Below are positions 35,638 through 64,000 of a stretch of 64,000 nt of DNA, one piece after another. Both the position numbers and the translations under genes were made by a program. The stretch spans positions 62,001 to 126,000 of the forward strand of contig CACNIK010000003.1 of the NCBI GenBank assembly GCA_902620525.1, in the 5' to 3' direction. The stretch is from an uncultured Pelagibacteraceae bacterium. Lineage in GTDB: Bacteria; Pseudomonadota; Alphaproteobacteria; Pelagibacterales; Pelagibacteraceae. The notes below the pieces were generated by a model, which worked only from the letters and a program-made list of their open reading frames with translations, ran no database searches and had not been told where the DNA came from. The stretch's first letter is position 1. Each line of letters begins with the position of its first letter.

Positions 35638-36510
35638 ATGTTCAAAGGTTCAATCGTAGCGTTAATAACACCGTTTAAAAATAATAAATTAGACGAGGCC
35701 AATTATAGTAAAATATTACACCACCATCTTAAAAATGGCACTAATGGCGTTGTACCGGCTGGTACAACTGGCGAGTCTCCAACTTTATCTCATATTGAAC
35801 ATAAAAAAGTAATTGAGATAGCAATTAAAGAATGTAAAGGTAAAATTCCAGTTATAGCTGGTACTGGCTCTAATTCTACTTCAGAAGCAATAGAACTTTC
35901 GAAACATGCGGAAAATGCTGGTGCAGACGGTCTACTCATTGTAACGCCATATTATAATAAACCAACTCAGGAAGGATTATACCAACATTATAAGTCAATT
36001 AATGACAGCGTAGGTATTCCAATCATCATTTATAATATACCTTCTAGATCTGTTATTGATATGACAGTAGATACAATGGCAAGATTATATGAGTTAAAAA
36101 ATATTAAAGGTGTAAAAGATGCTACAGGTGATTTAAACAGGGTATCTATGCAGCTTAACAAAATGGGAAAAGAGTTTATCCAATTAACCGGAGAGGATGA
36201 TAATGCGCTCGAATTTAATAAAAGGGGAGGCGTTGGTTGTATAAGTGTTACCGCTAACGTTGCAACAAAACTTTGCGCCGATTTTCATAAAGCCTCCTTG
36301 TCGAAAGACAATGAAACTGCACAATCGATCAATAATCTTTTGTCTCCATTACATAAAGCACTCTTCATTGAAAGCAATCCTTCACCGGTAAAATATGCTG
36401 CATCTCTTTTAAAGCTTTCTCCGGCAGAAGTAAGACTGCCATTAGTACAAGTAACTGAAAAAACAAAAAAAGAAGTAGAAAAAGCACTTAAATTTGCAAA
36501 ACTACTCTAA
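35638..36510 (+). CDS. dapA: 4-hydroxy-tetrahydrodipicolinate synthase
   Basis: DapA condenses pyruvate with aspartate semialdehyde in lysine and diaminopimelate synthesis. The Schiff-base lysine is K160 in GVKDATGD, with Y132 in IIIYNIPSR and the GTTGES motif at residues 42-47; the [14 protein letters not shown] segment is also typical. The 290-residue length is normal. It is the first gene of a tightly packed plus-strand run that continues to recO and shares one base with smpB. Confidence 0.97.
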
Positions 36511-36980
36511 TGAAATCAAAAAATGTTTCTCAAAAAATTATTTGCTTAAACCGCAAAGCAAGTTTTAATTACTATTTTAAAGAATTATATGAAGCTGGTA
36601 TTGTGTTAAAAGGGTCCGAGGTGAAATCATTACGAATTGGCAAAGGAAGTATAGCCGACTCTTATGCTGTAGACATAGGTGGTGAAATATTTTTAATCAA
36701 TTCACATATTCCATTGTATAAGCAATCTTCATACAATAATCATGATCCAAAAAGAGAGAGAAAATTACTACTGTCAAAAAAACAAATTAATACTCTAATT
36801 GGTAGAATTAATCAGGAAGGAATGACCATTGTACCAACAAAAATGTACTTTTATAAAGGTAAAGCAAAAATACAAGTAGCTGTAGGCAAAGGGAAAAAAT
36901 TATATGATAAAAGGTTAGTTAAGAAAAAAAGAGATTGGCAGAGAGAAAAAGCAAAAATTTTTAGTAGAAAAAACAAATGA
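36510..36980 (+). CDS. smpB: SsrA-binding protein SmpB
   Basis: SmpB binds tmRNA and brings it to ribosomes stalled on mRNA without a stop codon. The 156-residue protein shows [10 protein letters not shown], the GSEVKSLR motif, [23 protein letters not shown] and the basic C-terminal tail [13 protein letters not shown] that probes the mRNA channel. It shares one base with dapA and overlaps folK by four bases. The tmRNA gene itself is not in this window. Confidence 0.96.
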
Positions 36981-60696: not shown

Positions 60697-61640
60697 TGTC
60701 TATAGATAAAGATTATTTTAATAAATTTGTAAGAACTACTGAAAAAGCTGCGATAGGTGCATTTCCCTTTATAGGTAAAGAAAATAAAAATGCAGCAGAC
60801 AAGGGTTCTGTTGACATGATGAGAAACGAACTTAATTTAATAGATATGAAAGGTGAGGTAGTAATTGGTGAAGGTGAAATGGATGAAGCACCAATGCTAT
60901 ATATAGGAGAAAAAGTTGGAACAAAAAATGGTTTGGAGCTTGATATTGCCTTAGATCCGCTTGAAGGAACTAATTTTGTTGCTAAAAATTTACCTAATGC
61001 ATTTTCAATGTTAGCAGTTTGTGAAAAGGGGAATTTATTCTCAGCTCCAGATACTTATATGGAAAAGATAGCAGTTGGTCCAAATCTTCCTAAGAATCTT
61101 TTAGATCTAGACAATAGTGTTGAAAAAAATATTAAACTTTTATCTGAAGCAAAAAAAAAGAAGGTTGATAAGATCACTGCCTGTGTCTTAAAAAGACCAA
61201 GACACGATAAAATTATTAAAAGCTTAGAAAACTTAAATGTAAACATAAAATTTATATCTGATGGTGATGTATTAGGCGCAATATCTGTTGCTGATCCTAA
61301 TACAAACGTCGATATTTATTTAGGTATTGGTGGAGGACCTGAGGGAGTTCTAGCAGCCGCCGCATTATCATGTATGGATGGACAAATACAAACAAGATTA
61401 GTTTTAGATGATCAAGAACTTAGAAGAGCAAAAAAATTAGGCATTAAAGATGAGAAGAAAAAATATAATATAGACGACATGATAAAAGGGGATGTTATAT
61501 TTTGTGCTTCAGCGATTACTAACGGCGATATTGTTGATGGAATTAAGGATTTGGGGGATAAGTATGAAGTATCTACGTTTGCTTTACATAAAGATTTTAA
61601 AATCCTCAAAAAAGTCAAAAATTTTCATCCAAAAAAATGA
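60696..61640 (+). CDS. glpX: fructose-1,6-bisphosphatase class II
   Basis: GlpX hydrolyses fructose-1,6-bisphosphate in gluconeogenesis. The metal-binding VIGEGEMDEAPMLYIGE and DIALDPLEGTN motifs near residues 57-92 and the sugar-binding GIGGGPEGVLAAAAL segment are intact. The 314-residue length is typical. It shares one base with hom and overlaps recJ by four bases (ATGA). Confidence 0.95.
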   Translation: MSIDKDYFNKFVRTTEKAAIGAFPFIGKENKNAADKGSVDMMRNELNLIDMKGEVVIGEGEMDEAPMLYIGEKVGTKNGLELDIALDPLEGTNFVAKNLPNAFSMLAVCEKGNLFSAPDTYMEKIAVGPNLPKNLLDLDNSVEKNIKLLSEAKKKKVDKITACVLKRPRHDKIIKSLENLNVNIKFISDGDVLGAISVADPNTNVDIYLGIGGGPEGVLAAAALSCMDGQIQTRLVLDDQELRRAKKLGIKDEKKKYNIDDMIKGDVIFCASAITNGDIVDGIKDLGDKYEVSTFALHKDFKILKKVKNFHPKK

Positions 61641-63421
61641 ATGAATTATCACTATCAGGGAAAAATTGGAGATATAAAATATTTGATTCAACTTATGTTG
61701 AATATTTAAAGGAAAATTTTTTTTTAGATGAAATTACAGCAAAACTTCTATCAATTAGAAATATAAAAAAAGATTCTATTAAATCTTTTTTAGAACCATC
61801 GATTAAAAATCATGTACCGAATCCTAACACTTTAAGGGATATGGAAAAAACAACACTAAGATTATTAAAGGCAATTAATGAAAACGAGCGGATTGGAATA
61901 TTTGGTGATTATGATGTTGATGGTGCGAGTTCTACAGCTATAATTGGAAATTATTTCAAAACAATAAAACAAGATTTTGAAATATATATTCCAGATAGAA
62001 GGTCTGAAGGATATGGTCCATCAATAAGAAGTTTTCAAAATTTAATTAATAAAAAAGTCGATCTAATAATAACTGTTGATTGTGGAACAATGTCATTTGA
62101 TGCAATTGATTTTGCAAATGAAAATAAAGTTGATGTTATTGTGTTAGATCACCACCAATCTGAATTAAATTTACCCAAAGCACACTCTATAATTAATCCA
62201 AATAGATTTGATGACGAGTCAAAACTTAATTATTTATGTGCTGCAGGTGTGTGCTTTATGACTTTAATTGCAATAAATTCCGCTTTAAGAAAACAAGGAT
62301 GGTTTTTAGAAAAAAAAATTAAGGAACCAAATTTATTAGATTTTTTAGATTTAGTTTCATTGGGAACGGTTTGTGATGTAGTTCCTTTAATTGGGCTAAA
62401 TAGAGCCATTGTAAAACAAGGTCTTAAAGTAATTAATTCTAAAAAAAATTTAGGTTTAAAGACATTGATTGATTTGTGTAAAATTGAAACAAAAGCCTCA
62501 ACTTATCATTTAGGTTATATAATTGGACCTAGAATTAATGCTGGAGGTAGAGTTGGAAAATGTTCACATGGTGCTAATTTGTTACTTAACAAAAATCCAA
62601 AAGAGAGTTTTCAAATAGCTACTGAGTTAGAGCAATTTAATTTAGATAGAAAAAAACTTGAAACAGATCTTCTTAATGTAGTTTTGAATACGGTTAATGA
62701 TGATATTAACGATCCGGTTCTAGTTTTATACGGAAAAAACTGGCATGAAGGTGTAATTGGTATTATTGCTTCACGTATTAAAGATAAATTTAATAAACCA
62801 ACTATAATAATTTCTTTAAAAGATAATATTGGTAAAGCTTCTGCTAGATCAGTTTTAGGTTTTGATATTGGAGCAGTTATTTTGGCCGCAATACAAAATA
62901 AAATCTTAATGAAAGGAGGTGGACATAAAATGGCAGGCGGCTTTTCAATTGAAGAGAATAAAATTAAAAAGTTCAAAGATTTCATAACTAAAATGTTTAA
63001 TAAAAAAAATAATAAGAGGTCAGGAAAAAATGAAATTTATTTAGATAGCTTAATCTCTGCTTCAGCACTTAATTTTGATTTTTATAAAAAAGTTGAAAAA
63101 TTGTCACCTTTTGGAGCTGGTAATCCTGAGCCAAAATTTATTATAGAAAACGTTAAAGTTTTAAAATCATTAATTGTCGGTCAAAATCATGTTAAGTCAA
63201 TTTTATTATCAAAAGATGGTTCAACAATTAAAACTATCACTTTTAACTCTTATGATACTGATCTTGGTCAATTTTTGCTTAATAATAAGAAAAATACCTT
63301 CAACATTGTGGGAAAATTGAGTTTGAATGAATGGAGGGGTGAAAAAAATGTAGAGTTTATTATCGATGATATTTCTGTTAATAAGACTCACAAAAAAAAG
63401 GTCCCATCGTCTATCGGTTAG
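61637..63421 (+). CDS. recJ: single-stranded-DNA-specific exonuclease RecJ, 3' end inside tRNA-Glu
   Basis: RecJ degrades single-stranded DNA 5' to 3' in recombination and mismatch repair. The DHH-family metal motifs are present: DYDVDGASST (D91, D93, D95), VDCGTMS, LDHHQSE, and the DHHA1 part with GGGHKMAGGF; a C-terminal OB-like domain follows. The 594-residue length is near normal. The last six residues (VPSSIG) and the stop codon are encoded by the 5' part of the tRNA-Glu gene; no earlier in-frame stop exists. Confidence 0.96.
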   Translation: MNELSLSGKNWRYKIFDSTYVEYLKENFFLDEITAKLLSIRNIKKDSIKSFLEPSIKNHVPNPNTLRDMEKTTLRLLKAINENERIGIFGDYDVDGASSTAIIGNYFKTIKQDFEIYIPDRRSEGYGPSIRSFQNLINKKVDLIITVDCGTMSFDAIDFANENKVDVIVLDHHQSELNLPKAHSIINPNRFDDESKLNYLCAAGVCFMTLIAINSALRKQGWFLEKKIKEPNLLDFLDLVSLGTVCDVVPLIGLNRAIVKQGLKVINSKKNLGLKTLIDLCKIETKASTYHLGYIIGPRINAGGRVGKCSHGANLLLNKNPKESFQIATELEQFNLDRKKLETDLLNVVLNTVNDDINDPVLVLYGKNWHEGVIGIIASRIKDKFNKPTIIISLKDNIGKASARSVLGFDIGAVILAAIQNKILMKGGGHKMAGGFSIEENKIKKFKDFITKMFNKKNNKRSGKNEIYLDSLISASALNFDFYKKVEKLSPFGAGNPEPKFIIENVKVLKSLIVGQNHVKSILLSKDGSTIKTITFNSYDTDLGQFLLNNKKNTFNIVGKLSLNEWRGEKNVEFIIDDISVNKTHKKKVPSSIG

Positions 63422-63474
63422 GACACATGGTTTTCATCCATGAAAGAGGGGTTCGATTCCCCTTGGGACCGCCA
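63400..63474 (+). tRNA. tRNA-Glu (anticodon TTC)
   Basis: The acceptor stem GGTCCCA pairs with TGGGACC, followed by G and an encoded CCA. The anticodon loop TTTTCAT, between CATGG and CCATG, gives TTC (glutamate). The T-arm reads GGGGTTCGATTCCCC and the D-arm has TCTATCGGTTAGGA. The first 22 bases overlap the end of recJ on the same strand, including its stop codon, so RNase P processing would cut recJ mRNA. Confidence 0.97.
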
Positions 63475-63507: not shown

Positions 63508-64000
63508 ATGTATGAGAAATTTGGACAATTTATTAACGGAAAATGGCAAAGTTCATCAAGTAATGAAACTTATGAAGTTATAAATCCTGCTACAGAAGAA
63601 GTTTTAGGAAAAGCATCAAAAGCAAATAGCAAAGATATACAATTGGCACTTAAATCTGCTGAAAAAGGGTTAGAGGTATGGAAAAATACTTCTCCATGGG
63701 AAAGATCTAAAATTTTAAGAAACATCTCAGATTTAATTAGAAAAAAAAAAGATATTCTATCTAAGTGGTTAACTTTAGAAGTTGGAAAACCAATTTCAGA
63801 AGCACCAGGTGAAGTTGGAGGTGCTGCTGATATTTTTGAATGGAACTCCGAGGAAACAAAAAGAATTTTTGGTGAAATTAATCAAAGTAGATTTTCAAAT
63901 ACTCGTATTCATGTATATTATCAACCTGTTGGAGTTGTAGCTGCTTTAGTTCCTTGGAATTTTCCAATTGTTTTAGCCTCTAGAAAAATATCAACCGCTT
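63508..64000 (+). CDS. NAD(P)-dependent aldehyde dehydrogenase, 3' end beyond window
   Basis: The first 164 residues of an aldehyde dehydrogenase are visible. FGQFINGKWQ at the N-terminus, VINPATEEVLG, the LTLEVGKPISEAPGEV helix and the conserved VVAALVPWNFPIVLASRK segment (cofactor binding, with the asparagine of PWNFP) are typical. The catalytic cysteine lies downstream of the window. The substrate cannot be assigned; succinate-semialdehyde-type enzymes have similar N-termini. It begins 33 bases after the tRNA-Glu CCA end. Confidence 0.9.
   Translation, partial: MYEKFGQFINGKWQSSSSNETYEVINPATEEVLGKASKANSKDIQLALKSAEKGLEVWKNTSPWERSKILRNISDLIRKKKDILSKWLTLEVGKPISEAPGEVGGAADIFEWNSEETKRIFGEINQSRFSNTRIHVYYQPVGVVAALVPWNFPIVLASRKISTA

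Follow-up and report, generated by a model that had tools for sequence, protein, structure and literature searches.

How can a protein-coding gene end inside a tRNA gene on the same strand, when the cut that releases the tRNA would strip the message of its stop codon, and from which transcript would such a tRNA be made? The question is raised by the end of recJ in a window (the whole stretch of 64,000 nucleotides analysed here) from the genome of a SAR11 bacterium, a member of one of the ocean's most abundant bacterial groups, known for streamlined genomes. Seven of the matches to its RecJ come from named uncultured Pelagibacteraceae, four at 87-92% and three at 63-79% identity, and the eighth from a Campylobacteraceae bacterium at 34%. 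The recJ gene, coding for 594 amino acids, occupies positions 61637..63421 of the + strand and tRNA-Glu(TTC), with CCA encoded, positions 63400..63474 of the same strand. An initial annotation had claimed that the recJ frame has no stop before 63419 and that the tRNA contains its last six codons and its TAG; the open reading frame and ARAGORN agree on both counts: the first stop of the frame is the TAG at 63419..63421 (+), which is at the same time bases 20-22 of the tRNA, and the codons GTC CCA TCG TCT ATC GGT precede it within the tRNA gene, whose base 1 is the third base of the AAG codon before them. The minimum-energy fold of the tRNA is a cloverleaf with all four stems and the encoded CCA, and the overlapping TAG should include the conserved A21 together with a D-stem base that contributes to recognition by glutamyl-tRNA synthetase. 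In RecJ, the domains DHH, DHHA1 and RecJ_OB each score over the Pfam cut-off, and the RecJ_OB match reaches residue 578 (window position 63370), leaving the final 16 of the 594 residues outside it. This tRNA-Glu is the only one among the 27 tRNA genes found in the window's genome, an assembly that is 96% complete; its 3' neighbour, at 63511..63999 (+), is the start of an aldehyde dehydrogenase gene (PF00171) that leaves the window.

Comparison of the recJ end and the tRNA position across related genomes, as proposed in the initial annotation, finds the overlap conserved in most of them. A RecJ search of the same genus gave a match in 121 of 169 genomes, including all 14 of at least 90% completeness and at most 5% contamination, and all 121 ends were read. 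In 104, recJ ends at the TAG of tRNA-Glu bases 20-22. Another 15 have their stop at or before the tRNA edge with no insert: a TAA or TGA immediately 5' of the tRNA in eight, a TAG with tRNA base 1 as its G in three, and a stop 8-14 bases 5' of the tRNA in four (L014, L119, L123 and L125). The remaining two are L098, which carries an insert, and L048, where the contig ends while the frame is still open within the tRNA. In the sister genus g2, RecJ matched in 26 genomes, and the recJ ends of all but G285 were examined; among these 25 the identical tRNA TAG is the recJ stop in 17, a TAG sharing tRNA base 1 in seven, and in L305 another frame ends at a TAA formed by tRNA bases 13-15. At the one locus from genus g8 the overlap is identical. 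With the TAG kept in 104 same-genus genomes and the overlap found in a further 17 of the sister genus, the sequencing error that the initial annotation had allowed for is excluded as the source of a concealed earlier stop, and an assembly or sequencing error in general retains practically no probability. In a sample of 61 same-genus genomes, tRNA-Glu is present in 55 and as a single full-length copy in 54, the exception (G018) being 7% contaminated.

The overlap is embedded in an older gene order. At the level of the class, tRNA-Glu(TTC) lies 3' of recJ in 15 of 28 loci, at about 42-1296 bp, these loci being the top-scoring of the matches obtained in 113 of 114 genomes and several being truncated by contig ends. 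Judging from such comparisons, recJ followed by a same-strand tRNA-Glu, normally across a spacer, is an old arrangement in the Alphaproteobacteria. In a second family of the order the recJ stop lies 48-50 bases 5' of the tRNA in 17 of 18 loci, recJ being broken in the eighteenth; in genera g4, g5, g9 and g12 (14 loci) the distance is 39-81 bases, and in g6, g7, g10 and g13 (five loci) 6-17 bases. This series, ending in the overlap, shows a shrinkage of the spacer within the family. On a recJ tree of 133 ends, computed without the last codons and with about half of its inner branches weakly supported, overlap and other states are separated by 12 changes, compared with 21.6 for shuffled labels, and at least four of the changes fall on well-supported branches; a stop before the tRNA has, on this reading of the tree, probably been gained or lost several times. 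In g3/g11 the two genes are separated, by a gap of about 1.6-1.7 kb in nine of the 11 genomes in which both places are known, while G183 has tRNA-Glu 4.6 kb from recJ on the opposite strand and G267 has the two on different contigs. The two g3 inserts that were read (L216 and L224) hold an opposite-strand gene between recJ and tRNA-Glu, which in L224 encodes TPR repeats and a sulfotransferase domain.

What distinguishes the end of recJ is a block of its codons just upstream of the tRNA, at 63347..63384 (+), that is constrained at synonymous positions and in its position profile. It contains the motifs GAGTTTATT at 63353..63361 (+), exact in 119 of 120 same-genus sequences, TCTGTTA at 63374..63380 (+) and TAATAA at 63379..63384 (+). 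The near-frozen stretch in overlap genomes runs from codon -25 to -12 relative to the stop. Wherever the residue is kept in the 104 overlap genomes, the codon is GAG in 102/102, TTT in 103/103, ATT in 103/104, TCT in 103/103, GTT in 103/103 and AAT in 97/98 sequences; the two GAT codons and the ATC between them are less frozen (89-92%). In 29 representatives, each less than 80% identical to the others across the compared stretch, synonymous differences fall to 0.15-0.38 of expectation in windows within codons -26 to -12, and stand at 0.83-1.08 of expectation in the 15 printed windows reaching no further than codon -27. The spacing is nearly fixed as well: TCTGTTA lies 24-29 nt 5' of tRNA-Glu in all of 144 sequences (119 from the same genus and 25 from g2, excluding L098 and L048), irrespective of whether recJ reads into the tRNA. 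Directly 5' of the tRNA, an A-rich leader (63392..63399, +) has A at positions -8 to -4 in 94-99% of the 119 same-genus sequences.

Two situations indicate that the constrained block accompanies tRNA-Glu and not recJ. One is provided by the 13 recJ ends of g3/g11 that have no adjoining tRNA-Glu, of which 12 could be aligned: GAA encodes their Glu residue in 11 of 12, and variation extends to most of the other codons, the exceptions being TTT (11/12) and the GAT before the final residues. The other is G127 (L098), where a 0.9-kb insert with a NeuB-family gene (537-1301, - strand) parts recJ from tRNA-Glu; here the block is present as a perfect 32-nt direct repeat, once at the recJ end and once directly 5' of the tRNA, where it lies outside recJ.

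A sequence constrained beyond its coding role, held at a near-fixed distance from a tRNA gene and staying with that gene is what a tRNA promoter would look like, and we consider it probable that the last recJ codons contain an embedded promoter from which tRNA-Glu is mostly made as its own short transcript; the run of A at -8 to -4 would then be a possible start of the primary tRNA-Glu transcript. With such a promoter, the tRNA need not derive from recJ transcripts. The initial annotation had named a separate strong promoter for tRNA-Glu as evidence against its own reading, and on this point the findings diverge: in the comparison, a constrained block that accompanies the tRNA speaks for such a promoter, but the block does not resemble a sigma-70 site. 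A sigma-70 scan gave no + strand match at the block, which has no -35 and -10 elements near consensus at a spacing of 16-18 nt. Within the 60 nt 5' of the tRNA, the mean best score against the sigma-70 consensus in the 104 overlap genomes is 7.17 of 12, below that of shuffled sequences (8.03, sd 0.80). The score is also below shuffles in g5/g9/g12 (7.88 versus 8.31) and slightly above them in other spacer-bearing relatives, namely f2 (9.00 versus 8.23) and g4 (9.00 versus 8.13). In favour of a promoter, TATAAT occurs at -27 of tRNA-Glu in 12 of 14 genomes of g3/g11, where the gene is detached from recJ; TTGAAA accompanies TATAAT in 10 of 14, but at a spacing of 12 nt and not 16-18. No clear common -10 element appeared in the regions upstream of the 27 tRNA genes of the window's genome. 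The constraint on the block could also have some other cause at the level of DNA or RNA.

Where recJ stops follows a frame rule. A distance of 26 or 29 nt between TCTGTTA and the tRNA brings the recJ frame to the tRNA TAG, which is used in 104 same-genus genomes; five others at 26 nt have an earlier stop. With the motif at 24, 25 or 27 nt the TAG is out of frame, and all ten same-genus genomes of this kind have a recJ stop of their own before the tRNA. In g2, the genomes in frame comprise 17 that end at the tRNA TAG and seven that end at the stop sharing tRNA base 1, and in the sole genome at 24 nt the frame meets a second stop in the tRNA. As block, leader and tRNA are all constrained, the recJ frame continues to the first stop it meets in frame. 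No frame continues past tRNA-Glu base 22 in any of the 144 sequences, which argues that termination matters and says nothing for the last residues. Retention of the RecJ tail for the sake of the protein was considered and rejected: the RecJ_OB match ends at residue 578, and the four loci with a stop 8-14 bases before the tRNA end earlier. The tail looks dispensable from this comparison.

Bacterial promoters within the 3' end of an upstream gene are known to drive the downstream gene, and the history that we propose would lead to such an arrangement. The ancestral order would have been recJ ending at a stop of its own, then a spacer containing the tRNA-Glu promoter, then tRNA-Glu. In the SAR11 line of the window's genome the spacer would have been lost, so that the promoter would now occupy the final codons of recJ (about 63347-63384), with the short A-rich leader and the tRNA after it, and translation of recJ would run across promoter and leader into the tRNA, ending at the TAG of tRNA bases 20-22. 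The tRNA would come mainly from its own short transcript, and the recJ mRNA would be a longer and probably rarer molecule reading into the tRNA. A read-through copy cut by RNase P would become nonstop and be open to tmRNA and SmpB. Since tRNA-Glu would have a start site of its own, the conflict between RNase P cleavage and a complete recJ message would be limited to these read-through copies, a loss that we infer to be tolerable. Of this history, the overlap and its conservation, the constraint, the shrinkage of the spacer and the frame rule are established by comparing sequences, and promoter activity and transcript levels are deduced.

The initial annotation had seen the same conflict in another light, with RNase P cleavage of a joint transcript at 63400 removing the recJ stop, so that each transcript serves one purpose only or RecJ products depend on tmRNA rescue. 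The geometry is as claimed there, and the rescue components are encoded: smpB at 36510-36980 (PF01668), where the annotation had placed its start, and an alpha_tmRNA elsewhere in the window's own genome (G000:C2:164625-164923, 212.8 bits), so that the two could clear cut recJ messages. The remainder of the claim presumes that the tRNA is made from recJ transcripts, and the comparison favours a separate control site. Taken in full, a model with no separate promoter, in which tRNA-Glu is processed from recJ transcripts that each give either RecJ or the tRNA while tmRNA clears the cut messages, can draw on the same-strand overlap, on the presence of alpha-tmRNA and SmpB and on a block without a sigma-70-like promoter. 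It would, however, make the sole tRNA-Glu gene found hinge on the transcript of a repair gene, offers no explanation for a constrained block that accompanies the tRNA and has to accommodate the separation of tRNA-Glu from recJ in g3/g11; we regard it as unlikely.

A regulatory switch, in which RNase P activity or the demand for tRNA tunes RecJ through nonstop recJ mRNA, is very unlikely in our view; a switch of this kind has been proposed for selB and selC. The geometry fits that model, and the overlap is retained in 104 of 121 genomes. With 12 changes on the tree of 133 ends, at least four of them well supported, the overlap is nevertheless not strictly kept; promoter, leader and tRNA already fix the sequence, which makes additional selection unnecessary; and to our knowledge there is no link between RecJ and tRNA-Glu, which we also count against a switch. 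That the block is instead an element of the recJ mRNA that unfolds or hides the 5' half of the tRNA and lets recJ be read is highly improbable. By inspection, a short stretch of recJ can be paired with the tRNA (GAUGAU with AUCGUC). When 10-60 nt of upstream sequence were included in the folding of 21 overlap genomes, however, acceptor-stem formation was alike for real (mean 0.92) and shuffled (0.89-0.92) sequence, and the block is retained outside recJ in L098. Folding with 120 nt upstream reduced pairing in two of the 21 (L086 and L092), with means of 0.86 for real and 0.88 for shuffled sequence. An RNA element that unfolds the tRNA thus finds no support in the folding of these genomes, and the embedded promoter remains the reading that we prefer.

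Several known systems resemble parts of this arrangement. Unlike the usual promoter in an upstream reading frame, the presumed one here is read by recJ together with the leader and tRNA bases 1-22. In the compact genomes of animal mitochondria, bases are common to tRNA and protein genes; unlike in those overlaps, the recJ TAG is fully encoded, with no hint of a stop completed by polyadenylation. Such mitochondrial overlaps are also mentioned in a report by Mukai [PMC8124441], which describes selB/selC overlaps in Alphaproteobacteria, Gammaproteobacteria and Nitrospirae, the closest precedent for recJ/tRNA-Glu. In Dyella and Luteibacter the selB stop lies within tRNA-Sec at a fixed place, 46-48, and in certain relatives the reading frame terminates 5' of the tRNA; nonstop mRNA is the proposed outcome of processing, with protein and tRNA hypothesized to be alternative products of one transcript [PMC8124441]. 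As in these cases [PMC8124441], the recJ frame enters a tRNA gene of its own strand and stops within it; the position of the stop within the tRNA is likewise conserved among relatives, and there are relatives with a stop 5' of the tRNA (15/121, and outer genera with spacers). The difference is that tRNA-Sec and SelB are linked in function, and the source sees no pressure for compaction there [PMC8124441], whereas recJ/tRNA-Glu pairs a single housekeeping tRNA with a repair gene unrelated to it, in a small genome; relative to the selB/selC cases described there, the recJ frame also carries evidence of a dual-coded tRNA control site. Among titles and abstracts of the open-licence literature, a recJ/tRNA-Glu overlap did not come up in any paper listed, subscription papers being mostly outside that search. 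The locus illustrates how far streamlining can go, with a once-per-genome tRNA, an apparent control site and the C-terminus of a protein on common bases in more than 100 species-level genomes, and it offers a natural test of how messages with a stop codon past an RNase P cut site are handled. For gene callers it implies that recJ should not be trimmed, nor the overlap dropped.

Two further protein genes touch a tRNA in the genus, by one or two bases versus 22 in recJ. For tRNA-Phe, 59 of the 61 genomes had a match and 30 loci (L144 and L260-L288) were examined; in 26 of them the stop TAG of infA, its product IF-1 being named from a consensus, shares its G with tRNA base 1, L280 is a tRNA-Phe locus with identical letters and no infA, and three others of the 30 differ. 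Here, too, an RNase P cut would take away the stop of the IF-1 message. For tRNA-Trp, the 61 genomes gave matches in 58, in some of them only to other tRNAs; the stop TAG of tuf (EF-Tu was named for the window's genome) shares tRNA bases 1-2 in five of the 30 loci examined (L134 and L231-L259), the window's genome among them, and in the other 25 tuf stops 8-9 bases 5' of the tRNA. By eye, no constrained stretch as long as that of recJ is present in the 26 infA/tRNA-Phe or the 30 tuf/tRNA-Trp sequences, and in the 26 infA sequences only the last codons are conserved. A broader speculation, which we hold to be distinctly unlikely, is that the strip in SAR11 bacteria combines protein code, tRNA promoter and tRNA while processing of read-through copies sets RecJ output by nonstop decay, with RNase P maybe acting as a general brake on infA and tuf messages as well.

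The surroundings of tRNA-Glu and tRNA-Phe also carry partial tRNA copies. Stretches of 24-32 nt that repeat the 3' end of tRNA-Glu exactly or nearly so were seen in 12 of the 61 genomes (G086:C4, G156:C1, G129:C7, G036:C15, G132:C5, G079:C18, G078:C3, G012:C11, G007:C3, G010:C3, G104:C1 and G135:C1), 0.6-4.1 kb 3' of the intact gene; in G079 the copy is on a contig separate from that of the intact gene, and in G132 (L346) a Z1-domain/helicase protein is encoded between tRNA-Glu and the copies. These copies resemble the remnants of integration sites, and tRNA-Glu may be an integration hotspot. Partial copies of tRNA-Phe comprising bases 1-61 lie about 2-2.5 kb 5' of the intact gene in two genomes (G062:C3:123268-123327 and G092:C4:71438-71497), perhaps as a result of integration or duplication.
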